NCBI GenBank assembly: GCA_021735645.1
Contig: JAIPGP010000034.1
Span: 1-35,024 of the forward strand
Length of the DNA stretch: 35,024 bases
Reading direction: 5' to 3'
DNA from: Candidatus Cloacimonadota bacterium
GTDB taxonomy: Bacteria > Cloacimonadota > Cloacimonadia > Cloacimonadales > TCS61
Part shown: positions 5,920 through 17,951 of the stretch, one piece after another
How positions within the stretch are numbered: the first letter of the stretch is position 1
Layout: each line of letters begins with the position of its first letter
Made by a program: the position numbers and the translations under genes
Notes under the pieces: generated by a model
Databases searched by the model: none
Seen by the model: only the letters and a program-made list of their open reading frames with translations
What the model was told of the DNA's origin: nothing

Positions 5920-5990
5920 AATTACTCCATTAATAAGTCAAATACTCGAGAATCCAGCCAAAGGTCAATTCAAAATTCAAAATTGAATTT

Positions 5991-7859
5991 CTACCACTTC
6001 ACATCGCCAGGCTTGATAGCCCGTAAGCTGTCCTGGCCGATTTGCTCCTCCTGCCAGTAGCGGAAAAATATCTTAGCTTCGCCCTTATTACTGAAATCAA
6101 CAAATAATAAAAGATAGCCCTGGTCAGAATAGGTAGTTGAATAATAGTCCTGATGCATCTGAATAGCATATATGGGCAGCGTGCTACTGCGTTTGATCAA
6201 TTCTGCATCACGAAACTGGATATTGATATATTTATTATTGGCAAACACGTCGTACTTTAAATGGGATATGTATTCCTCTTTGGTATATTCAGTCATAACC
6301 ACTTTATGTTCCAGTTTATTGTTCAATTCCCGCTGCAGGTTTTCCGGCACTTTCTCTGTCCGCTTCACATAGCCGGCAAATATCTTGGCACTGTCAGCAA
6401 AAACATCAGCAATCAGATCAGCTTCCTGGGTATTGAAGATCGTCTTATAATACTCCATGAAGTTAATCCCCAGGAGGCGTTCCTGCAAGTCTTTTGATTT
6501 CTCGTTGCGTTCAATTGCATCATCAATATAGCTATCTTCCAAAGCAAAATTCACCCAACTGATCCTGCCGTCTTCATAGATAAAACAAAGCTTCTCCACT
6601 ACTACTTTCTTATTCACGTCATTCAGTTTATATACAACAGGGACTGATCGCACCTGCACCTGATTCTCCAGATTCAAATACTGGATGGTGAAATCCTCTT
6701 CATATATACTGATCTCACCATATTCCGTGAGTTTGCGGAACTGCTCATAACCGCCTTTGGTAAAATATTCCCGCACATCATCATACTTATCTTTCCGCAA
6801 ACTTTCTATCACTTCGTCCATGATATTTTTCAGACTCTTCTTTTCTCCTCTTGCCAGTTTAGATTCTGCCCGGAATTCTTTTGCTTCTTCATATTTTATC
6901 TTTGCCGGTTTTGCTCTCTCTTTTCCGGGTAGCTCAATCATTTTCTGGTTCGTGTAATCCGCTGTATAAATAAAACCGTTCAAAGCTTTCAGCTCAGGGT
7001 CCATTAGTTTGTTCTGCCTGTTTGCCCCTTTTCCGTAATCAATTTTTACCTGAATCTCCTCGGCTGCCTCACAAAAAGAACACACCAGGTCAATCCTGCC
7101 CATTCCGTCCAGAATATTACCTTCTATCTGGTCATTTCCGTCAAAATAGCAATAGCGCAGATTACTGATCGTGGCTCCTTTATAATATGCCTGCACATTT
7201 ATCCGCTTATAATTGCCTAAAACCCTCATATTACCAGATTCAAATGTGATCCCGGCTAAAGTCTCCCTAATCTCCTGATCAAGCTGCATCTTCAGATTCT
7301 TCGCTTTATTTTCAATACAAACTTTTATCGTATCCTGCCCCGGATGACTGGTGATCAATAAAAGTCCGCTGTAAAAATCCAGTAATGCCCGATTAATATT
7401 TAAATCCTCCCGATTATGCCTGCCTCTAAACAAAAACTCCTCTGCTCGCTGCTTCCTGCTGGCAAACAACTTGTCCTTTTCACTACGTTTTATAAATTTA
7501 TAAACAATATAATTCTTATTCTTTTTAGTAGGTGGTATAAATATTCTCCCTGTCTCCTTCAAAAAAGAACCAGAGTAAGTATTAACGATCCGAGCCGCAT
7601 ATTCATTCAATTCCACTTTCTCTTTTCCAGCAGTATTAGTCTTATTGATCTCCTCCCACTGACTCCTGAAACGGCTCTCCACCACCACCGATATCTGCTC
7701 ACTAAGATTTGTCAGAGCCGTCTGCTCAGCTACTTCATAATCCTCAGCTTCTCCCCGACCCCAGATATATTCATCACTACTCATTAATTCGCTTTCATCT
7801 ATCGCCAGTAAACTGCTGACTACCATTAGAATTATCAAAACTAATATTGTTTTCCTCAT
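5991..7859 (-). CDS. Exported LPP20-like domain protein, function unknown
   Basis: The 622-aa protein has a cleavable signal peptide (MRKTILVLIILMVVSSLLA) without a lipobox cysteine, so it is probably periplasmic and soluble rather than a lipoprotein. Residues about 30-110 resemble the LPP20 domain: GRGEAEDYEVAEQTALTNL then EQISVVVES, the pattern of an alanine-rich helix packed on a sheet. The middle (about 130-330) shows no motif I know. The C-terminal half (about 340-615) has two stretches that look like NTF2-type alpha+beta folds, which is a weak impression. The ribosome binding site (GGAG) sits right behind the stop codon of the upstream nuclease gene. A second, truncated copy of the first 80 codons lies at 8942-9184. 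Confidence 0.72.
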   Translation of the reverse strand: MRKTILVLIILMVVSSLLAIDESELMSSDEYIWGRGEAEDYEVAEQTALTNLSEQISVVVESRFRSQWEEINKTNTAGKEKVELNEYAARIVNTYSGSFLKETGRIFIPPTKKNKNYIVYKFIKRSEKDKLFASRKQRAEEFLFRGRHNREDLNINRALLDFYSGLLLITSHPGQDTIKVCIENKAKNLKMQLDQEIRETLAGITFESGNMRVLGNYKRINVQAYYKGATISNLRYCYFDGNDQIEGNILDGMGRIDLVCSFCEAAEEIQVKIDYGKGANRQNKLMDPELKALNGFIYTADYTNQKMIELPGKERAKPAKIKYEEAKEFRAESKLARGEKKSLKNIMDEVIESLRKDKYDDVREYFTKGGYEQFRKLTEYGEISIYEEDFTIQYLNLENQVQVRSVPVVYKLNDVNKKVVVEKLCFIYEDGRISWVNFALEDSYIDDAIERNEKSKDLQERLLGINFMEYYKTIFNTQEADLIADVFADSAKIFAGYVKRTEKVPENLQRELNNKLEHKVVMTEYTKEEYISHLKYDVFANNKYINIQFRDAELIKRSSTLPIYAIQMHQDYYSTTYSDQGYLLLFVDFSNKGEAKIFFRYWQEEQIGQDSLRAIKPGDVKW

Positions 7860-7872
7860 GAAATATTCACTC

Positions 7873-8913
7873 CTAAATATTACTATTTTCTTTTTTTTTC
7901 ATTAACTCATTTTCTAATTCTTCGATTGAAGGAAGTTTTGTCTTGATATTATCAGGAATTGCGTCAGTCAATTTATATTCGCTTATACCGATTGGCTTAT
8001 TTATATCCCTAAGTGCATACTCAGCTACAATTCTATCCTTCTGCTTGCAAAGTAAAATCCCTATTGTTTGATTATCTTCCGGATTTCTAAACTGACTATC
8101 AACTGCTGATAAATAAAAATTCATTTTCCCAGCATATTCTGGCTTGAATTTTCCAGCTTTTAACTCTATCACTATGAAACATCTCAGCTCCAAATGATAA
8201 AACAACAAGTCAATGAAATAATCAGTTTCACTTATTTCGATTTTATATTGACTGCCAAGAAAAGCGAATCCCTTACCTAATTCTAATAAAAATTTTGTAA
8301 TGTTTTTTATAAGCTCATCTTCAATTGCTTTTTCTAAAGCATCATCTTGAAGTTTTAGAAAATCAAAATTATAAGGATCCTTTAATGTTTGAGAAACCAG
8401 TTTTGATCGGTCTTCCGGTAAAGTATTAGCAAAATTATTGATTGATTTTCCCATCTTACCAAATAGATTATTTTTCATTTGAATTTCTAATGTATCACGG
8501 TTCCATCCTTTCTTAATTACTTCATTACAATAGAATTCTGCTTCCTCAATATTCTTTACCTTTGATATTATTAACCGGTTATGACCCCAGGGTATTTGTG
8601 CCACAGCCTGTGGCACAAATTGATACTTCTGAGAATAAAATAAAAACCATTGCCTTATTGCATATAAGTTTCTACGTGAAAAACCCTTAATTTCTGGAAA
8701 TTCACTGCGTAAGTCAACTGCTACATGCTCAATAAAGCTATTACCCCAATCCGATAGCTTCTGCTTTTCATAGAGTTCCTTCCCTAACTCCCAGTAAAGC
8801 TCAAGAAGCTGAGTATTGATGGTCAATGCAACCCTTTGCCTTACTAAATGGATTTTCGATTTTAACTCTGATATCCAGGTGAAATATTCACTTTTATTAA
8901 AAGTATCACTCAT
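7873..8913 (-). CDS. YhcG-type PDDEXK nuclease-domain protein (DUF1016)
   Basis: This 346-aa protein matches the YhcG family. An N-terminal helical DUF1016_N region (about 1-150) includes GFSRRNLYAIRQWF and IPWGHNRLI, both hallmarks of the family. A C-terminal PDDEXK nuclease-like domain has FIDLLFYH (acidic residue about 213) and the catalytic-type FIVIELKAGKFKPEYAGK (E-x-K near residue 230). Family members are often linked to restriction or defence loci and mobile DNA, but their biochemical role is poorly defined. Here the gene stands alone between a truncated and a complete LPP20-like gene, and its stop overlaps the leader of the latter. The shine-dalgarno-like GGAG is 13 bp from the ATG, rather far. 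The setting suggests an acquired gene. Confidence 0.88.
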   Translation of the reverse strand: MSDTFNKSEYFTWISELKSKIHLVRQRVALTINTQLLELYWELGKELYEKQKLSDWGNSFIEHVAVDLRSEFPEIKGFSRRNLYAIRQWFLFYSQKYQFVPQAVAQIPWGHNRLIISKVKNIEEAEFYCNEVIKKGWNRDTLEIQMKNNLFGKMGKSINNFANTLPEDRSKLVSQTLKDPYNFDFLKLQDDALEKAIEDELIKNITKFLLELGKGFAFLGSQYKIEISETDYFIDLLFYHLELRCFIVIELKAGKFKPEYAGKMNFYLSAVDSQFRNPEDNQTIGILLCKQKDRIVAEYALRDINKPIGISEYKLTDAIPDNIKTKLPSIEELENELMKKKENSNI

Positions 8914-8941: not shown

Positions 8942-9184
8942 TCAAACCTTACCAGCCATATTCGTCTTATTGATCTCCTCCCACTGACGCCAGAAACTGC
9001 TTTCCACAACCACAGATATCTGCTCACTAAGATTTCTCAGCGCTGTCTGCTCAGCTACTTCATAATCCTCAGCTTCTCCCCTACCCCAGATGTAATCTTC
9101 ACTCCCTGTGAGTTCGCTTTCAGTCATTGCCAGTAAACGACTAACCACCATTAGCAACGAAATCAATATCAAAAATCTCTTCAT
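8942..9184 (-). pseudogene. Truncated 5' copy of the LPP20-like gene
   Basis: The 80 codons here duplicate the start of the gene at 5991-7859. Signal peptide, the segment YIWGRGEAEDYEVAEQTAL, NLSEQISVVVES and QWEEINKTN all recur, and much of the DNA aligns base for base. The reading frame ends after NMAGKV, where the full gene continues as NTAGKEKVELNEY. About 540 codons are missing, and the nuclease gene starts 28 bp further on. It keeps its own ribosome binding site (GGAG 8 bp before the ATG), so a short exported peptide could still be made. A gene remnant left by duplication and insertion is more likely than a functional gene. Confidence 0.7.
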
Positions 9185-9248: not shown

Positions 9249-10760
9249 CTAAAAATGCACATTAATAATTGGGAAAAATGGCAGTGCGCCTCCTTTGCCA
9301 TCTTTAACTATATTTATTACTCCAATCTGAACTCCCTTCAGCTTCTTTGTATAATTAATCACTCCTATTTGAACTCCCACTACCGTATCTGTATTAACAT
9401 TCCAGTTTGCTATGGATACCCCATAGCAGTTTTGAGAAATACTGCCAGAAAACAATCCCAATAATACCGTATGAAAAATGAATGGTTCCTGATCATTTGT
9501 ATAGAAACCTGAGTGTAATCCAATTTGGTGAATACCTCCAATAGCAACCCCATGGATATCTCCTAAGTAAAAATCTAACACAACTCCCGAAAGAGCAAAT
9601 CCATGAAACTCATTACCTCCCACAGCAATGTTACCAATAGCCATCCCAGTAAACTCGCCAGCAAGAACACCATTTGTACTGATCCCTATTCCCTTAAACC
9701 TACTACTCAATACTCCAGCTCCACCAATTGCAACTCCAGTAAAATCACCCTTATCTTCAACGTCTATTGATAAACTATTCCCAGCGAAAAATGGATTTAT
9801 ATCCAACCCTACAAATTTCTTATATCCAGGTGAATAAAAAACTGGTAATTTAATCCCATGAAATTCTGCATCGTGGTCTGGAATCAATCCTATTCCATAT
9901 TTAATCTTTTTACGATAATCTCTAAATAATTCTAATTTATATTCTTCATATTCTTGAGAAAACAGTTCCTGCTTCTTATAATCAGAATACTGTGGAATAA
10001 TTATCTTAACTTTTGCATCTTTAGAATCACTTACAGCAATCAACTCTTTTCCTGAATGTCTTAACTCATTATTAACAAACAAAACACATTCTGAAAAAGG
10101 AGCAAAGTACTTTTTGTAGAATAAATTAATATTAGTGATAGCATTTTCTGATATACTAATGTCCTGACAGTAAACTTTAGTCTTTCCCTTTTTCAAACAA
10201 AGAGAATATTCACCTGCCTGACTGGTGAAATAGGTGGCATTGTCTTTTTCAATAATAATCTCTTTATCACTATCTTTCTTATCATATAGACAAACTTCCA
10301 GTTCCTGCTCCAATTCTTTTGGAATATTAGCAGTAAATCCACCAATAAATTCATTTTCAATTATCATTGTCTCTTCATTATCTAGTTCAACATCACCAAA
10401 CAATCTCAAAACATAAGTTTTCTCTGATATTAATTCTTCAGGGAAACTGTATTTTATTGGAAGATATTTCTCTGATGGAGCTATAGTAACAGATTGTTCC
10501 CATTTACTGATATAGAAATAGATGATCTTCTCCGTTTTCTTTTCCCGCTGAAAGACCTCTACATCAGTAAGATGCACATCCCCTGCCAGATTATGCTCAA
10601 TTCTGATCAAAGTACAATTATCACCATTGCTGTCAACTACTGGTGAAACGCTGCCATGCATATCAAGATTATCTATCGCAAATGAACGAACTTCCAAGCC
10701 CTCGGCATATAGCCCTAAAATAATAAATATAAATAATATAACAAAACTTACCTTCCTCAT
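9249..10760 (-). CDS. Surface-repeat protein, PEGA-less paralog (LA_2272-type repeats)
   Basis: This 503-aa protein is the shortest of three adjacent paralogs. It shares with the other two a signal peptide (MRKVSFVILFIFIILGLYAEG) minus the last residues, and a conserved N-terminal domain to about residue 125 (FAIDNLDMHGSVSPVVDSNG, YFYISKWEQ, YLPIKYSFP). Unlike them it has no PEGA modules and passes straight to the NIPKELEQELEV segment (about 145). From about residue 300 a repeat region begins with GIKLPVFYSP and continues as glycine/hydrophobic units such as FTGVAIGGAGV, FTGMAIGNIAV, VVGVQIGVINY and LKGVQIGVINI. These resemble LA_2272-type surface repeats, probably a beta-solenoid or barrel-like structure at the cell surface. 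Function unknown. The start is set by the conserved leader and GGGGG 4 bp before the ATG. Confidence 0.8.
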   Translation of the reverse strand: MRKVSFVILFIFIILGLYAEGLEVRSFAIDNLDMHGSVSPVVDSNGDNCTLIRIEHNLAGDVHLTDVEVFQREKKTEKIIYFYISKWEQSVTIAPSEKYLPIKYSFPEELISEKTYVLRLFGDVELDNEETMIIENEFIGGFTANIPKELEQELEVCLYDKKDSDKEIIIEKDNATYFTSQAGEYSLCLKKGKTKVYCQDISISENAITNINLFYKKYFAPFSECVLFVNNELRHSGKELIAVSDSKDAKVKIIIPQYSDYKKQELFSQEYEEYKLELFRDYRKKIKYGIGLIPDHDAEFHGIKLPVFYSPGYKKFVGLDINPFFAGNSLSIDVEDKGDFTGVAIGGAGVLSSRFKGIGISTNGVLAGEFTGMAIGNIAVGGNEFHGFALSGVVLDFYLGDIHGVAIGGIHQIGLHSGFYTNDQEPFIFHTVLLGLFSGSISQNCYGVSIANWNVNTDTVVGVQIGVINYTKKLKGVQIGVINIVKDGKGGALPFFPIINVHF

Positions 10761-10885
10761 TGTACCCCCGATAAATATTATTATTCAAATATTTACATTA
10801 AAACTATAATGTCAAACTAAATGTCCCCATTAAACCAATCTTCTGAATCAGGATTTACGAAATTTAAGATATTTACATGATTAAA
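10468..10885 (-). repeat. Conserved 5' cassette, copy 1 (N-terminal coding part, leader, promoter, upstream DNA)
   Basis: DNA of the first ~95 codons, the leader and about 120 bp upstream is nearly identical to 17097-17518 and very similar to 13732-14095. Similarity to copy 3 continues past the promoter into non-coding DNA (the shared block CTTCTGAATCAGGATTTAC); copy 2 diverges there. Conservation falls off sharply in the 3' parts of the genes. Confidence 0.8.
10787..10815 (-). promoter_or_regulatory. Candidate sigma-70-type promoter of surface paralog 1
   Basis: On the minus strand TTGACA (10815-10810) is followed after 17 bp by ATATTT (10792-10787), about 27 bp before the ATG. The same -35 hexamer, spacing and ATATTTGAATAATAATATTT stretch occur at the two sister genes, which supports function. 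The -10 is a poor match to TATAAT. Confidence 0.5.
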
Positions 10886-11469
10886 ATCTTCACAGTACAT
10901 TCTTTCGCGGTCTTAGCGGCTTTCGCGGTTAAACAATTCTTACATTACATTACATCTTCCGTGTGTTCAGTGTTTTCAGTGGTTGATAAATCTTACATTA
11001 CATTATGAGTTGATCTCAAGTTCCCGATAGATCGGGGCAGGTGTTTTCGATGAATACATCGCCTTAATCCGATATCTTATTGATGATCATCAGTATATTT
11101 TATTGATAGTAAAACGTACTATATAGTATAATGTGATTAATCTGGGAATATTTAGAAGTTTTTCTGTTTCATACTCTTGTAACCCACAGGGGAGCCACTC
11201 GGGAGCCACAGGGAGGATATTGGGAAGCGAAACATTGTTTAAAGTATTAATTTTCAGTTAATTATGAGATTTTTAGTCATTTTTAGATGGAATAATGGTT
11301 TTTGGAACGCTTGGATATTGTATTTTCTATTTAAGTTTTGGTTATTTTTAGCTTAAATCTTTTGAATTATCCTCTCTTTCATTATCGCTGCCACAGAGAG
11401 GGAGGAATATAGTCTAGAGCATTAGCTCACTTGATCTCATTCGCAATTGATAACAGATAAATAAATTTT
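10816..11469. other. Gene-free spacer with degenerate repeats
   Basis: No supported gene is present. The stretch holds phrases that recur at 17455-17712 (CTTCTGAATCAGGATTTAC; GGCTTTCGCGGTTAAA versus GGCTTTCGTGGTTAAA; CTTACATTACATT twice here). It also holds a hairpin CCCGAT-AG-ATCGGG at 11023-11036, a palindromic TACTATATAGTA near 11108, and the 11-bp tandem repeat at 11184-11216. A weak stem CCTCTCT/AGAGAGG (11371-11401) with a 17-nt loop lies downstream of the next paralog but has no T-run. Confidence 0.6.
11184..11216. repeat. Three tandem 11-bp units
   Basis: The units are CCACAGGGGAG, CCACTCGGGAG and CCACAGGGAGG. A related CCACAGAGAGGGAGG lies at 11390-11404. GC-rich islands in otherwise AT-rich spacer DNA. 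Confidence 0.6.
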
Positions 11470-14031
11470 TCATTTAAATATTCCCTGAATATTTATTAAA
11501 GGAAAATCTGGACCATTGTCAACATCGTTCCATAAGCCAATTTGAATACCATGTAGTTCTCCTGCATGATTATAGAAACCTATTTGAACTCCATAGAGTT
11601 CATTTTTAGTAAAATTCCCTCCTCCAATTGAAATACCATGGAAGTTTTCAGATCCTGCTAAACCTCCAATTGCAATACCATTGAAATTATCTGTCTTGAC
11701 ACCAAATCCTCCAATTGCAATTCCATTGAAATTATTTGCACCAACACCAATACCTCCAATTGCAATACCATTGAAATCATATGTACACACGTCACTCTCA
11801 CTCTCAATCTCCACGCTACCACCTAAAAGCCAATTGACCGCTATACCATTAAATTCTTTATATACTGGAGAATAAAATATTGGTAATTTAATTCCATAAA
11901 AAACAGCTTCTTCATTTGAAACTAATCCGATCCCATACCACCTTTTATAATAATCTTTCCCTAATTTCAGTTCGTAATCGGAATATTCCATTTTTAAAGT
12001 ATCTTTCCTGCAGAATCCTGCATATCCTGGTATCTTAAACTTCACGGTATTAATTTCATCATCACTTGCCAGCACAAGGTATTTCCCCCTGTCAGTAAGT
12101 TTACTATTTAGATACAACTGACTTATCTTAGATGGTGTTTCATATCTTCTAAAATAAGGTGTAATTTCTGGCTTGTTAGAACTTGTTATCTGAATTGCTT
12201 TCTGATATATCATATTTTTACCCTTCATAATACTCAAGCTATAAAATCCTGCTTTATCAACCAAATAATCATTATTTACTTTATAGAGTTTCACTTTCTG
12301 CATATCTTTGTCAAAAACTGCTACTTCTAATTCATTTTCTAATTCCTGAGGAATATTTACCGAGAAACCCAGCTCTGCTTTTAAAAGCTGAGGCTCTATC
12401 TTCTTTTTATCACCTTCTACTAATTCAATTGTGGCTTCATAAGGTAGATATTGAGGTTGAGTGATTTTCAACTCGTATTTCCCTATTGGAATATCAGAAA
12501 ACCGGCAAATACCAGTATCTTCATAATATTCGCAACTATCTCCACTTAATGTCACTTTTGCGTCTTTGGGTTCTGGATTCACCAATATTGTACCAGTCAT
12601 CGGCACTGGATAAAGCTCAAAATCCAAAGTATCTCCAATTAGAATGATTCCCTTTTTATGGGCAGGGTGGTGCTTTGCTAATTCAGCTCTTAAATTCAAG
12701 GTACGTGGTGTAAGTTTTACATCAACCAATTTTGTTATTTCCTTCTCATTAAGATATACTATTGCACCAGGCAAAGTCTTGATATTAACTGTGCCAAAGT
12801 TCTGCTCAGCCTGAAATATCACCTGCACTGTGGAGTCAGGCTTCAGGTCAATTGTCTGGTCAGCTATAATATAAAGCTCATGTTGCCCACTTATGGTATA
12901 TTTACCTTTCAATTGCCGCTTCAGGGTTAAAGGTGTTTTGCCCACATTATTTTTATTTATGATAACATCAAGATTAACTTCCGGTTCGGATACTATTACT
13001 AGCTCACCAAATTCAGAAATTGGTGTTAGTATTATTTTTTGTGTCTCCCCTGAACTCAAAACAATATTTTCAGTCTCCGTAGTATAAAACTCATTTTCTG
13101 CCCTGATTTTATACTTACCCAGTGCAAATTTATCAAGCTGCAAAGGAGTATTTCCTGTAGAATCCTCATTGATGAACACTGTCAGATTTTTCTCCGGTTC
13201 TGTAACAATTTCCAGATTGCCAAATTCAGGGATTGGATTTAAAGTAATCGGCATGGCTTTACTACGCTCAATATATATGGTATCTGCTGCACAACTGTAA
13301 TATATATGCTCAAACCGAAGAGTATGGGAACCGGACTTACATCTTTCCAGCTTAACAGGAGTTTTACCTATCAGAGATTCATCCAGGTACACAGCCATAT
13401 TCACTTCAGGCAGAGATATAATCTCAAGCTCTCCAAAATCCGGCTCTAGAACATAACTTTCCTCAACTTTGGAGCCTGATATATTAATCTGAGAGTTCAA
13501 AACAACATATTCGTCTAATTCTATCCTGATTGGATATGTGCCCGGAATAAAAAAATCACTCACAGGAGAAACACCTTTTAATCTGATTTTATTAATATAA
13601 ACTGTCGCACCTGCCGGTTCAGTAATGATAGTCACCGGAATATCTTCCAGTTCATCACCTTCTCCATCACCATACAATCTCAGCACATAGGTTTTTTCAG
13701 GTTTAAGATTTATTGGAAATGAATATTTAATGGGAAGATAGTTCTCTATGGAAATTGTTATATACTGCTCCCATTTACTAATATAGAAATATATAATATT
13801 ATTCCCTTTCTTTTCACGTTTGAACACCTCCACATCGAAGAGATGCACATCACCTGCCAGATTATGCTCAATTCTGATCAGCGCACAATTATCACCATTG
13901 CTATCAACTACAGGTGAAACGCTGCCATGCATATCAAGATTATCTATCGCAAATGAACGAACCTCTAAGCCCTCGGCAGATATTCCTAAAATAATAAATA
14001 TAAATAATATAACAAAACTTACCTTCCTCAT
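11470..14031 (-). CDS. Surface-repeat protein with six PEGA-like modules (LA_2272-type C-terminus)
   Basis: This 853-aa paralog has the shared signal peptide and N-terminal domain (about 1-130). Six PEGA-like modules follow (about 135-550), recognisable by IITEPAGATVYIN, EIISLPEVNMAVYLD, EIVTEPEKNLTVFIN, VIVSEPEVNLDVIIN, NIKTLPGAIVYLN and ILVNPEPKDAKVTLS, each followed by a G-x-TP-x-x-L or similar turn. PEGA modules are small beta-rich extracytoplasmic domains thought to sit at surfaces or bind wall components. A linker region (about 552-700) precedes C-terminal repeats from about 712: FNGIAIGGIGV, FNGIAIGGFGV, FNGIAIGGLAG, FHGISIGGGNF, LYGVQIGFYNH and LHGIQIGLWND, ending in PLINI like the sister proteins. 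These repeats are more regular than in the other paralogs. Exported and probably surface-exposed; function unknown. Confidence 0.82.
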   Translation of the reverse strand: MRKVSFVILFIFIILGISAEGLEVRSFAIDNLDMHGSVSPVVDSNGDNCALIRIEHNLAGDVHLFDVEVFKREKKGNNIIYFYISKWEQYITISIENYLPIKYSFPINLKPEKTYVLRLYGDGEGDELEDIPVTIITEPAGATVYINKIRLKGVSPVSDFFIPGTYPIRIELDEYVVLNSQINISGSKVEESYVLEPDFGELEIISLPEVNMAVYLDESLIGKTPVKLERCKSGSHTLRFEHIYYSCAADTIYIERSKAMPITLNPIPEFGNLEIVTEPEKNLTVFINEDSTGNTPLQLDKFALGKYKIRAENEFYTTETENIVLSSGETQKIILTPISEFGELVIVSEPEVNLDVIINKNNVGKTPLTLKRQLKGKYTISGQHELYIIADQTIDLKPDSTVQVIFQAEQNFGTVNIKTLPGAIVYLNEKEITKLVDVKLTPRTLNLRAELAKHHPAHKKGIILIGDTLDFELYPVPMTGTILVNPEPKDAKVTLSGDSCEYYEDTGICRFSDIPIGKYELKITQPQYLPYEATIELVEGDKKKIEPQLLKAELGFSVNIPQELENELEVAVFDKDMQKVKLYKVNNDYLVDKAGFYSLSIMKGKNMIYQKAIQITSSNKPEITPYFRRYETPSKISQLYLNSKLTDRGKYLVLASDDEINTVKFKIPGYAGFCRKDTLKMEYSDYELKLGKDYYKRWYGIGLVSNEEAVFYGIKLPIFYSPVYKEFNGIAVNWLLGGSVEIESESDVCTYDFNGIAIGGIGVGANNFNGIAIGGFGVKTDNFNGIAIGGLAGSENFHGISIGGGNFTKNELYGVQIGFYNHAGELHGIQIGLWNDVDNGPDFPLINIQGIFK

Positions 14032-14095
14032 TGTACCCCCATTAAATATTATTATTCAAATATTTATACCAAAACTCTCATGTCAAATTAAATGC
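13732..14095 (-). repeat. Conserved 5' cassette, copy 2
   Basis: Coding DNA for the signal peptide and N-terminal domain plus the leader and promoter match copies 1 and 3 closely (a run of over 150 bp before the ATG side is almost unchanged). Homology ends just upstream of the -35 hexamer. The downstream coding part (GEGDELEDIPV onward) resembles copy 3, not copy 1, giving a mosaic pattern. Confidence 0.78.
14058..14086 (-). promoter_or_regulatory. Candidate sigma-70-type promoter of surface paralog 2
   Basis: TTGACA at 14086-14081, 17-bp spacer, ATATTT at 14063-14058 on the minus strand, placed as in the other two copies, 27 bp before the ATG. The spacer differs from the sisters while the hexamers and the following AT stretch are conserved. 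Confidence 0.5.
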
Positions 14096-14256
14096 CAAAA
14101 TATCACTTCAAAATCAAGCGGATAGATGATAGACCTATCTATGCTTGTCCTGTATGTATTCATCAACAAGATACTGGGGATTCAATAGACATCACTATTG
14201 CACGAATGCAAAACTTACGCAAGTCAATTTATAGCGATTCCCAGTTCAAAATTTAA
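14092..14256 (+). CDS. Possible small CxxC protein or gene fragment, doubtful
   Basis: An open frame of 54 codons starts at an ATG at 14092 and fills the spacer between two surface paralogs, overlapping the 3' end of the next one by 11 bp on the opposite strand. It includes RPIYACPVC, a zinc-ribbon-like C-x-x-C knuckle with only one half present. No ribosome binding site precedes the ATG, and the frame starts right beside the sister gene's promoter. It could be chance or the remnant of a larger gene. I do not recognise it. Confidence 0.18.
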   Translation: MPKYHFKIKRIDDRPIYACPVCIHQQDTGDSIDITIARMQNLRKSIYSDSQFKI

Positions 14257-17200
14257 AATGTATCAGCGGGAATATATTTCTTTGAGGATAAGATCTTCCC
14301 CGCACTTTCTTTCCGTCACTAACATTTAGTAATCCTATCTGCACACCTTTCACTTTAGAGGCAAAATTTACCAGCCCTATCTGTACCCCAGTTAGCTGAC
14401 TGGAGGCATTTACAAGGCTTATCTGCAATCCTTTCATTGGTCCCACAACACTGCAAATAACTGAGATATTTATACCTGTATAATCTGACTTATAAGGTCT
14501 GTATGTGTGAAATCCCTTGTAAGATCCAACACAATAAGTCATAAGGCTTAATGAGATACCTTTCAATTCATTGCATAACAAAACACTTCCCACAGAAACA
14601 CCTTCAATTTTATTACAACCCATGTATCCACCAGTGAAAGCTATCCCTTTAAAATTACGATATCCTATATAACCACCTGCCAATGCAATTCCATCAAAGT
14701 CAGCTATTTTACCTTGATCAATAGGAGTTACTGCTGCCCCAGAAAAAGCAAATCCTTTAAAATCCTGTGAACCAGATAAAAATATGCTCAGGCAGGCACC
14801 TCGAAAACTGTCCATTGACCCAGAAACCAGTCCAGAAATTGCTACACCATTAAAATCTTCTGAACAAGTCGCCAAAGGACTTATGGCAAATCCGTTAAAT
14901 TCGCCTTTGAAATTACCTGGCAAAATACCGTACATTTTGCTGATATTTCCAGCATAAAATAGATTTGCTTCAATTCCATAAAATCTCGCATATGCTGGCG
15001 AGGATATTACAGGTAACTTAATACCATAAAATGTTTTATTATTCCATTGTTTTAATGTTACTGGTATACCATAAGCCCGTTGGAAATAATCTCTACTTTT
15101 AGTTAAACTATATTGGCTATATTCTTTTTTCAGTGTGATTTGCGACCGATAATCCGAAAATCGAGGCAGGACAATCTTCACTTTCGCAGTATTCTCACTG
15201 CCAACAACTAATAATTCCTTACCAATCCCCTTATACTTGTCATCTACGTAAAGTTTAGATTTTTCTGAAGGAGTGATATATTTCATATAACCCAGTTTTA
15301 AATTGGGAAATTGCTCACTGTTTATCTCTATCTTCTGGCTATATACAAGCTGCTGACGCCAAGATATCTCCAATTGATGTTCTCCACTTTCACCCACCAG
15401 GTACAACGTATCCTGCTTTGCCAGTTTCACTTCCCTTTTTCCGCTTTTGTTCAAATTATAGAGCTTAACAATTAATTCTTCTTGCAGCTCTGCCGGGATA
15501 TTCAAGCTAAATCCCAATTCAGCATCTATCATATCAATGGTCAGTTTCTGACGATCTCCTTCGGCAAGTATAAATTCATCAATCGTTTTCACATACGCAG
15601 GATGTTCCAGTTCAACCCTGTATTTCCCGACAGGAATATCTATAAATTTGCCTATCCCCTGGCTTTCATAGTATTCACCACTATCACCAAACAGTTTCAC
15701 ACTGGCATCTACAGGAAATGGATTGATCATCACAGTACCTGTCAAAGGCTGAGGTATAAGCTTGATATTTAGTTCATCACCTTTATGCAAAATTTCTTTT
15801 TTGACCGCATCTCCATGCTTGGCAAGTTCTGCCCGTAAATTCAAGGTTTGCGGCATTAACTTCTGATTATCCAGCTCTTGCAAAACTTCGCCATTTAAAT
15901 ACACTTTTGCTCCAGCCAGAGTTTCAATGCTTAATGTCCCAAAATTCTGCTGAGCACTCAGCACAACTTCTTTCTCTTCTGATGCAGCCAAATCAATTAC
16001 CTGATCAGCACAGCTATACAATTCATGTTTGCTGCTAATTTTGTATTTTCCCTCAATCTGTTTCTTTAAATCCAGGGGAGTTTTTCCCACAATCTCATCA
16101 TTCAAACTCACTTCAAAGCCAATTTCCGGCTTAGAACGGATAATAAGCCTCCCGAAATTTTCCTTTGGCTGAAATATTACGTTACGTTTTTCGCCAGATT
16201 TTAAACTTATGAACTGGCTTTTTGCCCTGTAATACTCATGTTCAACTTCTATATTATAATCACCTAAGGCATATTTATCAAGGTTTAATGGAGTTTTACC
16301 CACCTCCAACCCATCAATAAAAACCGTCATATTAACTTCGGGTTCTGAAACTATCTTCATATTACCAAAATCTGCTTTGACAGCAAATATTATCTTCTTA
16401 TCTTCTCCCCGGTCAAGCTTAAATACCTGTTCCTTGGCATAGTATTCTGCATGCTCCGCGCGTAGCCGATATTCACCAATTGCTGCCTTATCTATACTGA
16501 AAGGCGTGACACCCAGTTTCTGATTGGAAGCATAAACCGTTACATTCACTTCCGGTTCTGAAATAATTTCCAAATTTCCAAACTCCGGAATCGCTGTAAT
16601 TGTAATATTTTTGCTCTCACCTCGCCCCATATTAAATGTTATATTCTCACTACTGTAATACCTATGCTTAGTGCTGATAGTATATTCACCTGCTTTGCAT
16701 CGCTCCAGATTCAAAGGGGTATAACCCGCAGATTTGCCATTTAGCAGAATCTCAAGATTCACTTCCGGCTCAGAGATTATTTCTAACTCTCCAAAATCCG
16801 GCTGCAGAGTATAACTCTTTTCTACCCGCTCACCTGCTATCGTGATCTCTGAAACCATACTTACATATTCATCCAGTTCTAAGCGGATTGGATAAGTTCC
16901 TGAAATAAAAAAATCGCTAACTGGTGTCTTGCGAGAAAGCTTGATATCATTAATATATACCTCAGCTCCCTCTGGCTCTGTTATTATTAGTACCGGAATA
17001 TCTTCCAGTTCATCACCTTCACCATCGCCATATAACCTCATAACATAGGTCTTTTCAGGTTTCAATGGTTCTGGAAATGAATATTTTATTGGTAAATATT
17101 TCTCTGCTGGAGCTATAGTAACAGATTGTTCCCATTTACTGATATAGAAATAGATGATCTTATCAGTTTTCTTTTCGCGACGAAAAACCTCTACATCAGT

Positions 17201-17392
17201 AAGATGTACATCCCCTGCCAGATTATGCTCAATTCTGATCAGCGCACAATTATCACCATTGCTATCAACTACAGGTGAAACGCTGCCATGCATATCAAGA
17301 TTATCTATCGCAAGTGAACGAACCTCCAAGCCCTCGGCATATAGCCCTAAAATAATAAATATAAATAATATAACAAGACTTACCTTCCTCAT
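14246..17392 (-). CDS. Surface-repeat protein with seven PEGA-like modules (LA_2272-type C-terminus)
   Basis: At 1048 aa this is the longest paralog. After the shared signal peptide and N-terminal domain come seven PEGA-like modules (about 135-624): LIITEPEGAEVYIN, EIISEPEVNLEILLN, EIISEPEVNVTVYAS, KIVSEPEVNMTVFID, IIRSKPEIGFEVSLN, SIETLAGAKVYLN and MINPFPVDASVKLF. Modules 2-5 share EPEVN and a G-x-TPL-x-L-x-[KR] turn, so internal duplication is evident. A linker region (about 625-785) and divergent repeats from about 787 follow: FNGFAISPLAT, FNGVAISGLVS, FKGIAFTGGYM, LTGVQIGLVNF and VKGVQIGLLNV, ending in IHFKF. The extra module relative to the 853-aa sister explains most of the PEGA-region length difference. 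Probably exported to the surface; function unknown. It is the first gene of the minus-strand surface block. Confidence 0.82.
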   Translation of the reverse strand: MRKVSLVILFIFIILGLYAEGLEVRSLAIDNLDMHGSVSPVVDSNGDNCALIRIEHNLAGDVHLTDVEVFRREKKTDKIIYFYISKWEQSVTIAPAEKYLPIKYSFPEPLKPEKTYVMRLYGDGEGDELEDIPVLIITEPEGAEVYINDIKLSRKTPVSDFFISGTYPIRLELDEYVSMVSEITIAGERVEKSYTLQPDFGELEIISEPEVNLEILLNGKSAGYTPLNLERCKAGEYTISTKHRYYSSENITFNMGRGESKNITITAIPEFGNLEIISEPEVNVTVYASNQKLGVTPFSIDKAAIGEYRLRAEHAEYYAKEQVFKLDRGEDKKIIFAVKADFGNMKIVSEPEVNMTVFIDGLEVGKTPLNLDKYALGDYNIEVEHEYYRAKSQFISLKSGEKRNVIFQPKENFGRLIIRSKPEIGFEVSLNDEIVGKTPLDLKKQIEGKYKISSKHELYSCADQVIDLAASEEKEVVLSAQQNFGTLSIETLAGAKVYLNGEVLQELDNQKLMPQTLNLRAELAKHGDAVKKEILHKGDELNIKLIPQPLTGTVMINPFPVDASVKLFGDSGEYYESQGIGKFIDIPVGKYRVELEHPAYVKTIDEFILAEGDRQKLTIDMIDAELGFSLNIPAELQEELIVKLYNLNKSGKREVKLAKQDTLYLVGESGEHQLEISWRQQLVYSQKIEINSEQFPNLKLGYMKYITPSEKSKLYVDDKYKGIGKELLVVGSENTAKVKIVLPRFSDYRSQITLKKEYSQYSLTKSRDYFQRAYGIPVTLKQWNNKTFYGIKLPVISSPAYARFYGIEANLFYAGNISKMYGILPGNFKGEFNGFAISPLATCSEDFNGVAISGLVSGSMDSFRGACLSIFLSGSQDFKGFAFSGAAVTPIDQGKIADFDGIALAGGYIGYRNFKGIAFTGGYMGCNKIEGVSVGSVLLCNELKGISLSLMTYCVGSYKGFHTYRPYKSDYTGINISVICSVVGPMKGLQISLVNASSQLTGVQIGLVNFASKVKGVQIGLLNVSDGKKVRGRSYPQRNIFPLIHFKF

Positions 17393-17518
17393 TGTACCCC
17401 CGGCAAATATTATTATTCAAATATGTATATTAAAACTTTAGTGTCAACCTAAATGTCCCCATCCAATCAATCTTCTGAATCAGGATTTACAGGATTCAGG
17501 ATATTTGCAGGATTAATA
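17097..17518 (-). repeat. Conserved 5' cassette, copy 3
   Basis: Nearly identical to copy 1 (10468-10885) through the N-terminal coding part, leader, promoter and non-coding DNA beyond it, including CTTCTGAATCAGGATTTAC. The coding part just downstream instead resembles copy 2. Confidence 0.8.
17419..17447 (-). promoter_or_regulatory. Candidate sigma-70-type promoter of surface paralog 3
   Basis: TTGACA at 17447-17442, 17-bp spacer, ATATTT at 17424-17419 on the minus strand; same layout as the other two paralogs. Confidence 0.5.
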
Positions 17519-17951
17519 ATGATATCCCATTACAACCAACCAAGTTGGGAGTTACGGACGACCAATTCCACTTAAAAACTTCCTATAAGTCCTATACGAC
17601 ATATAGGACCTATAGGACCTATAACATAAATCCCATCTTCGGCATTACATTATCTTCTTTTCGCGGCTGTTCGCGGCTTTCGTGGTTAAATAAAATCTTA
17701 CATTACATTTATGAAGAGGTGACTTGTGACTGGTAATTGGTGATTAGTGTATCCAGACCTTATTATTCCGGGTTGCAATACATTTTTTACATTTTACATT
17801 AATACTCCCATTCACTATTCACCTCTTTTCCCATTCACGGTTAATCAGGGCTTTCGTAGCAGAAATTTATTTTTCATTGACATAAAGCCGTATAGTCAGA
17901 GGAGTGTTTTCTTGCTTATTAAAATGTAAGATGAAGTAATAAATATAATTT
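17448..17951. other. Divergent spacer between surface paralogs and ppdK, repeat-rich
   Basis: No supported gene. From left to right it holds the end of cassette copy 3, the TATAGGACC inverted/direct repeat (17582-17616), the phrases TTCGCGGCTGTTCGCGGC, GGTTAAATAAAATCTTAC and TACATTACATTTATGAAG that recur in the spacer at 10900-11005, and a bland AT-rich region before ppdK. A TTGACA at 17877 has no matching -10 at normal spacing. Confidence 0.55.
17582..17616. repeat. Inverted repeat built of CCTATA / TATAGG units
   Basis: Arms CCTATAAGTCCTATA (17582-17596) and TATAGGACCTATAGG (17602-17616) pair over 13 of 15 positions around a 5-nt loop (CGACA). The TATAGGACC unit is also tandemly repeated on the right arm. 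There is no T-run, so a terminator is unlikely. Confidence 0.65.

Follow-up and report, generated by a model that had tools for sequence, protein, structure and literature searches.

Tandem envelope-protein genes with zero, six and seven PEGA modules in a Cloacimonadota genome: candidate members of a modular stalk family

Three neighbouring genes on one strand of a contig from a Candidatus Cloacimonadota bacterium encode exported proteins that share their two ends and differ in how many PEGA modules lie between them, which raises the question of how such a length series arose and what proteins of this build might do in the cell envelope. A reading made from the sequence alone (hereafter the sequence-only reading) had proposed repeated recombination at a surface-protein locus, serving variation in surface length or binding. 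The window analysed here is the whole of that contig (C23; 35,024 bases), which belongs to a draft genome of 3.77 Mb. All three genes are real, and the coordinates and lengths with which they had been called are exact (Table 1). The signal peptide, N-terminal domain (N-domain) and C-terminal repeat region are common to all three, as had been described. The N-domain spans ~108 residues, a post-stalk domain of ~145 residues is also present in all three, and the NCBIfam model for the LA_2272 repeat (NF047436; cut-off 25 bits) scores 31.7, 37.9 and 57.3 bits in genes 1, 2 and 3, respectively. A fourth full-length paralog of 699 aa with four PEGA modules lies elsewhere in the genome on contig C130, its LA_2272 repeat likewise above the cut-off, and the N-domain occurs with other ends at two further places, C111 (twice) and C149. 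In pattern scans of 84,980 genomes, which miss distant relatives, we found no relative of the N-domain, and only a Caldithrix stand-alone repeat protein matched the C-terminal region; a sequence search of the PDB with gene 3 gave no match. We consider genes 1–3 to be best explained as tandem representatives of a family of exported, modular cell-envelope proteins that has expanded in this lineage, an explanation in which, taken as a whole, we place moderate confidence.

Table 1 Features of the locus and members of a related protein group; positions refer to the window.
Feature	Position	Strand	Description
LPP20-domain gene, probable partner	5991..7859	(-)	622 aa, exported; weak Csd6/Pgp2-type NTF2-like C-terminal match
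YhcG/DUF1016 PDDEXK nuclease-family gene	7873..8913	(-)	Between truncated and full LPP20 genes
Truncated 5′ copy of LPP20-domain gene	8942..9184	(-)	80 aa; 85% DNA identity over 206 bp
Gene 1	9249..10760	(-)	503 aa; signal peptide, N-domain, post-stalk domain, LA_2272-type repeats; 0 PEGA
Gene 1 homogenised 5′ tract	10446..10885	(-)	~125 bp upstream to codon 105; ends approximate
Gene 2	11470..14031	(-)	853 aa; gene 1 architecture plus 6 PEGA/PEGA-like modules
45-bp tandem repeat	11620..11784	(-)	3.7 copies, 79% matches; gene 2 LA_2272-type region; Tandem Repeats Finder
Gene 2 PEGA array	12373..13635	(-)	66-aa first, three 71-aa middle, 66-aa and 76-aa tail modules
Gene 2 homogenised 5′ tract	13852..14101	(-)	~70 bp upstream to codon 60; ends approximate
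Gene 3	14246..17392	(-)	1048 aa; gene 1 architecture plus 7 PEGA/PEGA-like modules
Gene 3 PEGA array	15518..16993	(-)	66-aa first, four 71-aa middle, 66-aa and 76-aa tail modules
Gene 3 homogenised 5′ tract	17078..17517	(-)	~125 bp upstream to codon 105, with gene 1; ends approximate
Promoter-like TTGACA-16-CATATT, gene 3	17420..17447	(-)	Consensus match only
Members of the ~650-aa PEGA group			C99 (same genome as genes 1–3); G001 C92 (sister species); G015 C49 (another genus)

The module counts in the sequence-only reading are borne out by homology, which gives 0, 6 and 7 for genes 1, 2 and 3 and 4 for the C130 paralog. The Pfam PEGA model alone (PF08308; cut-off 20.8 bits) scores 149.3 bits in gene 2 and 159.6 bits in gene 3, with five significant stretches in each, and has no match in gene 1. 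The second-last, 66-aa module (M5 of gene 2, M6 of gene 3) receives no Pfam score by itself and was recognised by within-family homology; it is divergent, PEGA-like only, and poorly modelled in structure prediction. The array on C130 has, in order, modules of 66 aa, 71 aa (its one middle module), 66 aa and 76 aa. In the AlphaFold model of gene 2 most PEGA modules reach a pLDDT of about 70–80, and Foldseek matched the modules to Ig-like bacterial stalk and pilin proteins in the PDB (E 2e-12 and weaker).

Modules 2–5 of gene 3 had been thought to share an EPEVN motif and a G-x-TPL turn, as if copied from one another. The motif is present in M2–M4, but M5 reads KPEIG, and the turn fails in M3, which reads GVTPF. 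More importantly, recent copying is contradicted by the low identities and by the absence of a PEGA tandem array. The middle modules of gene 3 are 30–45% identical to one another in amino-acid sequence, those at equivalent positions in genes 3 and 2 are 48–52% identical, and M5 of gene 3, M4 of gene 2 and M2 of the C130 protein are 51–52% identical, so that modules in matching positions of different genes are as alike as, or more alike than, neighbours in one array. The best DNA pair among the middle modules is 59% identical, and Tandem Repeats Finder detected no PEGA tandem array over the three genes. Because identity follows position across genes, DNA identity does not exceed 59% and a tandem array is absent, the expansion of PEGA modules is old; the same evidence rules out a recent amplification. 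A recent duplication of length-determining units, as might be sought at a phase- or length-variable antigen locus, was likewise not found, there being no PEGA tandem DNA repeat. The sole tandem DNA array inside the three genes is the 45-bp repeat of gene 2, and it therefore may be that the C-terminal repeat region of this gene varies faster than its PEGA stalk. Gene 1 most likely lost a whole array at module boundaries, which is the simpler history because the post-stalk domain places gene 1 with gene 3; the grouping is weaker in the N-domain, and the repeats give no resolved grouping. Across the family the count runs from about 1 to 7. Paralogs and distant relatives do vary in module count, but the counts are fixed across two genera in one orthologous group of ~650-aa PEGA proteins, whose modules start at residues 207, 276, 346, 417 and 484 in all three genomes.

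The 5′ ends of the three genes have a different history. When silent-site divergence was computed along aligned codons, pair by pair, pS came to 0.10–0.20 over the opening ~60 codons, a stretch that extends to ~105 in the pair of genes 1 and 3, whereas the remainder was saturated. For genes 2 and 3, for example, silent differences occupy 4 of 42 sites in codons 1–63 versus 388 of 505 beyond them (Fisher p 2e-18); the Fisher values, which run from 1e-11 to 1e-20, are descriptive, since the intervals were picked after the data had been viewed. The part of the gene 3 tract that is common to gene 2 covers codons 1–60 plus ~70 bp upstream. The C130 paralog, used as a control, has no such drop (28 of 42 silent differences in the 5′ codons versus 321 of 412 in the rest; p 0.12), which argues against a general DNA-level constraint on these codons. 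The straightforward reading is that the tract comprising the promoter region, leader, signal peptide and start of the N-domain has recently been overwritten among the genes by segmental gene conversion. Elsewhere in the genome, a tandem pair of 608-aa PEGA proteins on C111 (L075 879–4547) alternates between blocks of very low and of saturated silent divergence and reads as a clear conversion patchwork. Mis-assembly of the draft contig at near-identical 5′ ends is unlikely, because these ends are 84–96% identical.

The proposed recombination thus stands for the 5′ ends, where silent-site breaks are found, and for the heads, but not as recent copying within the PEGA arrays. The N-terminal DNA of gene 1 is indeed closest to that of gene 3 over ~370 bp (89.6% identity, versus 84.1% with gene 2), but over the first 60 codons the pair with the lowest silent divergence is genes 2 and 3. 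The GEGDELEDIP segment, taken to link genes 2 and 3 through recombination, is probably ancestral: the C130 protein has GEGEDINNIG, and gene 1 has no such segment, so that it gives no sign of recombination. Nor do the data demonstrate a mosaic across the whole protein, since in four-taxon tests the segments outside the 5′ tract all favour or do not reject ((g1,g3),(g2,C130)); a deep mosaic of all segments is accordingly unsupported. In Campylobacter fetus, sapA is controlled by an inverting promoter switch. A switch of this kind is unsupported here, where genes 1–3 lie on one strand and each has its own promoter-like site; those of genes 1 and 2, at 10788–10815 and 14059–14086, have the same offset as that of gene 3 and are, like it, consensus matches only.

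DNA that is syntenic with two species of the same genus ends at 5931 and restarts at 17868, and the intervening 11.9-kb block (the LPP20 gene, the YhcG gene and genes 1–3) is absent beside the same flanks in both sister species, each represented by one genome. This comparison shows the block as an apparent species-specific island; in the sister species the flanks lie on different contigs, so that synteny might also be broken at this point.

Among 125 genomes of the phylum, 9 were found to carry LA_2272-type repeats, which sit on long PEGA proteins in this genome alone. In the other eight no long open reading frame was seen to hold the repeat (the longest being about 455 aa), and where read the proteins are short and stand-alone. 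The model of the C-terminal head has long antiparallel strands (pLDDT about 60) and no match in the PDB at E<=0.001. Genes 1 and 3, and the proteins on C130, C111 and C149, end in a C-terminal F with hydrophobic residues at -3 and -5, an outer-membrane-like signature; gene 2 ends in ...GIFK, without this signature. Other members carry other heads. In the C149 paralog (L076 520–3057) the N-domain and PEGA stalk are fused to a FadL/TodX-type barrel (PF03349, 1e-28), and another PEGA protein, on C47, has an FGE-sulfatase head (PF03781, 6e-54). Across the family, then, LA_2272 repeats, a FadL-like barrel, an FGE-sulfatase domain and a hydrophobic tail are shown to be exchangeable heads. We also observed an apparent second barrel fragment upstream of the FadL-fused PEGA gene on C149, and FGE-sulfatase-type C-terminal domains on the PEGA proteins of L080, L081 and L083 (C47, C147 and C118), with several tandem copies on C47.

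When a protein has a barrel at its C-terminus, its N-terminal part ordinarily stays in the periplasm. For this reason, and given the FadL-type barrel on C149, a periplasm-facing stalk seems more likely than a surface-displayed one, an argument that draws on the barrel of one paralog and on the C-terminal signature. The surface location put forward in the sequence-only reading is doubtful, since the same N-domain and PEGA stalk end in an outer-membrane barrel on C149.

The gene downstream of the three encodes a probable partner. Its LPP20 score of 25.5 bits falls just under the cut-off of 25.9, and its score for Cds6_C, the Csd6/Pgp2-type NTF2-like domain, is 20.5 bits, below the Pfam cut-off of 27; matches to the two models are found in 12 and 8 of 17 family members, respectively. 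A profile of the family identified only LPP20 in the PDB (4kzs, 1.8e-6). Searching nine genomes with the LPP20 protein returned 16 genes, 10 of which have a PEGA gene no more than about 1.4 kb away, where chance would place such a neighbour beside about 1.5% of genes (computed in this genome); two of the remainder are at contig ends and four are without a PEGA neighbour. The arrangement extends to a distant genus (L202 4614–10137, on contig C101 of G095), in which an LPP20 gene is followed on one strand by two N-domain/PEGA proteins, 778 and 456 aa long. In Pgp2, peptidoglycan is bound by the NTF2-like domain (PMC8038945).

Taken together, our findings suggest a modular family of envelope stalks, anchored in the outer membrane, facing the periplasm, working with an LPP20/NTF2 partner and having converted 5′ ends, a reading to which we give roughly even credence. 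The head would consist of the post-stalk domain and, after it, LA_2272-type beta repeats whose C-terminus resembles that of outer-membrane proteins, and would sit in or on the outer membrane, with the N-domain and stalk facing the periplasm. The Ig-like PEGA modules, variable in number, would form a rigid stalk whose reach may be set by their number. The stalk proteins would be functionally linked to the LPP20/NTF2 protein of the downstream gene, a protein that may itself contact peptidoglycan, and the family would have diversified through module gain and loss, head swapping and segmental gene conversion. A bolder extension, which we put forward as quite doubtful, is a periplasm-spanning tether kit in which several kinds of outer-membrane head, PEGA stalks of 0–7 modules and a peptidoglycan-contacting LPP20/NTF2 partner are combined, with module number as the ruler that sets the gap from the outer membrane to the cell wall.

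The locus could instead encode surface-displayed adhesins, in which the head is held outside the cell by the stalk and module loss or gain, together with 5′ conversion, yields antigenic or length variants. Tandem paralogs with differing counts (and a C130 paralog with four modules), recent homogenisation of the 5′ ends, the annotation of the LA_2272 family as a surface repeat, the Foldseek matches to pilins and adhesins, and an island absent from sister species are each consistent with such a family. We nevertheless judge it unlikely: PEGA modules have not been copied recently, the FadL-type barrel on a paralog speaks for a periplasmic stalk, the LPP20/NTF2 partner likewise indicates the periplasm, a promoter-like site for each gene leaves no switching mechanism visible, and no host interaction is known.

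It is also conceivable, if on the improbable side, that these are ordinary old paralogs whose module numbers have drifted neutrally, as happens in many proteins with tandem domains, and whose 5′ similarity is routine concerted evolution without functional meaning. The spread of counts across the family, the fixed positions of one orthologous group in two genera and the long-standing divergence of the modules all speak for this reading. However, the conversion edges are sharp (codons 60 and 105) and bound a tract covering promoter region and signal peptide, and the rules of head and stalk recur across genera and together with LPP20. That the low 5′ silent divergence arises from constraint at the DNA or RNA level (promoter, leader, translation start) rather than from conversion is highly improbable; the tract does take in promoter-like sequence, leader and signal peptide, but the 5′ codons of the C130 gene, the control that disfavours this cause, show the same saturation as the remainder of that gene, and the tract ends at different codons in different gene pairs.

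The original description of PEGA (PMC2447325) was of a 70-aa domain present in surface proteins of archaea and bacteria. The arrays of genes 2 and 3 resemble PEGA domain proteins (PF08308) in scoring far above the Pfam cut-off, whereas gene 1 has no PEGA module, and the N-domain and LA_2272-type head lie outside the described domain. The C-terminal repeats of genes 1–3 and the C130 protein belong with the LA_2272 surface repeat, and relatives end alike; here, however, the repeat is a head on an N-domain/PEGA stalk, and elsewhere in the phylum set it was detected on no long open reading frame. The ~650-aa PEGA proteins, paired with LPP20 in the same gene order, share the N-domain, similar tail modules and the LPP20 neighbour, but have fixed module positions and a hydrophobic C-terminal tail in place of LA_2272 repeats. 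Ig-like stalk and pilin proteins of Gram-positive bacteria (Bacillus anthracis TIE, PitA) are alike in predicted module fold and tandem arrangement; the resemblance is one of fold only, with low global TM-scores, and a sequence relationship was not found. A literature search found the PEGA/LA_2272 combination in no paper, and for the combination, with its swappable heads and recurrent LPP20 neighbour, the nearest described elements are the PEGA domain and the LA_2272 repeat themselves. We found no established role for PEGA domains, although they are widespread. The neighbourhood of LPP20/NTF2 and N-domain/PEGA genes with swappable heads offers a testable handle on where PEGA stalks are located and what they connect, and the 0/4/6/7 series supplies, within a single genome, a ready-made range of lengths for tests of this kind.

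Several smaller repeats accompany these genes. The duplicated 5′ end of the LPP20 gene occupies 7624–7829 and 8949–9154 of the window, and a 13-bp sequence, tgaaatattcact, recurs in direct orientation near 7859 and 8881. The genome also holds 11 copies, within two mismatches, of a dispersed 23-bp repeat, AATCCTGTAAATCCTGATTCAGA, compared with none for the reversed control; this repeat is found upstream of gene 3 (17474–17496) and, with three mismatches, upstream of gene 1 (10842–10864), and it also occurs near PEGA genes on C120, C147 and C118.
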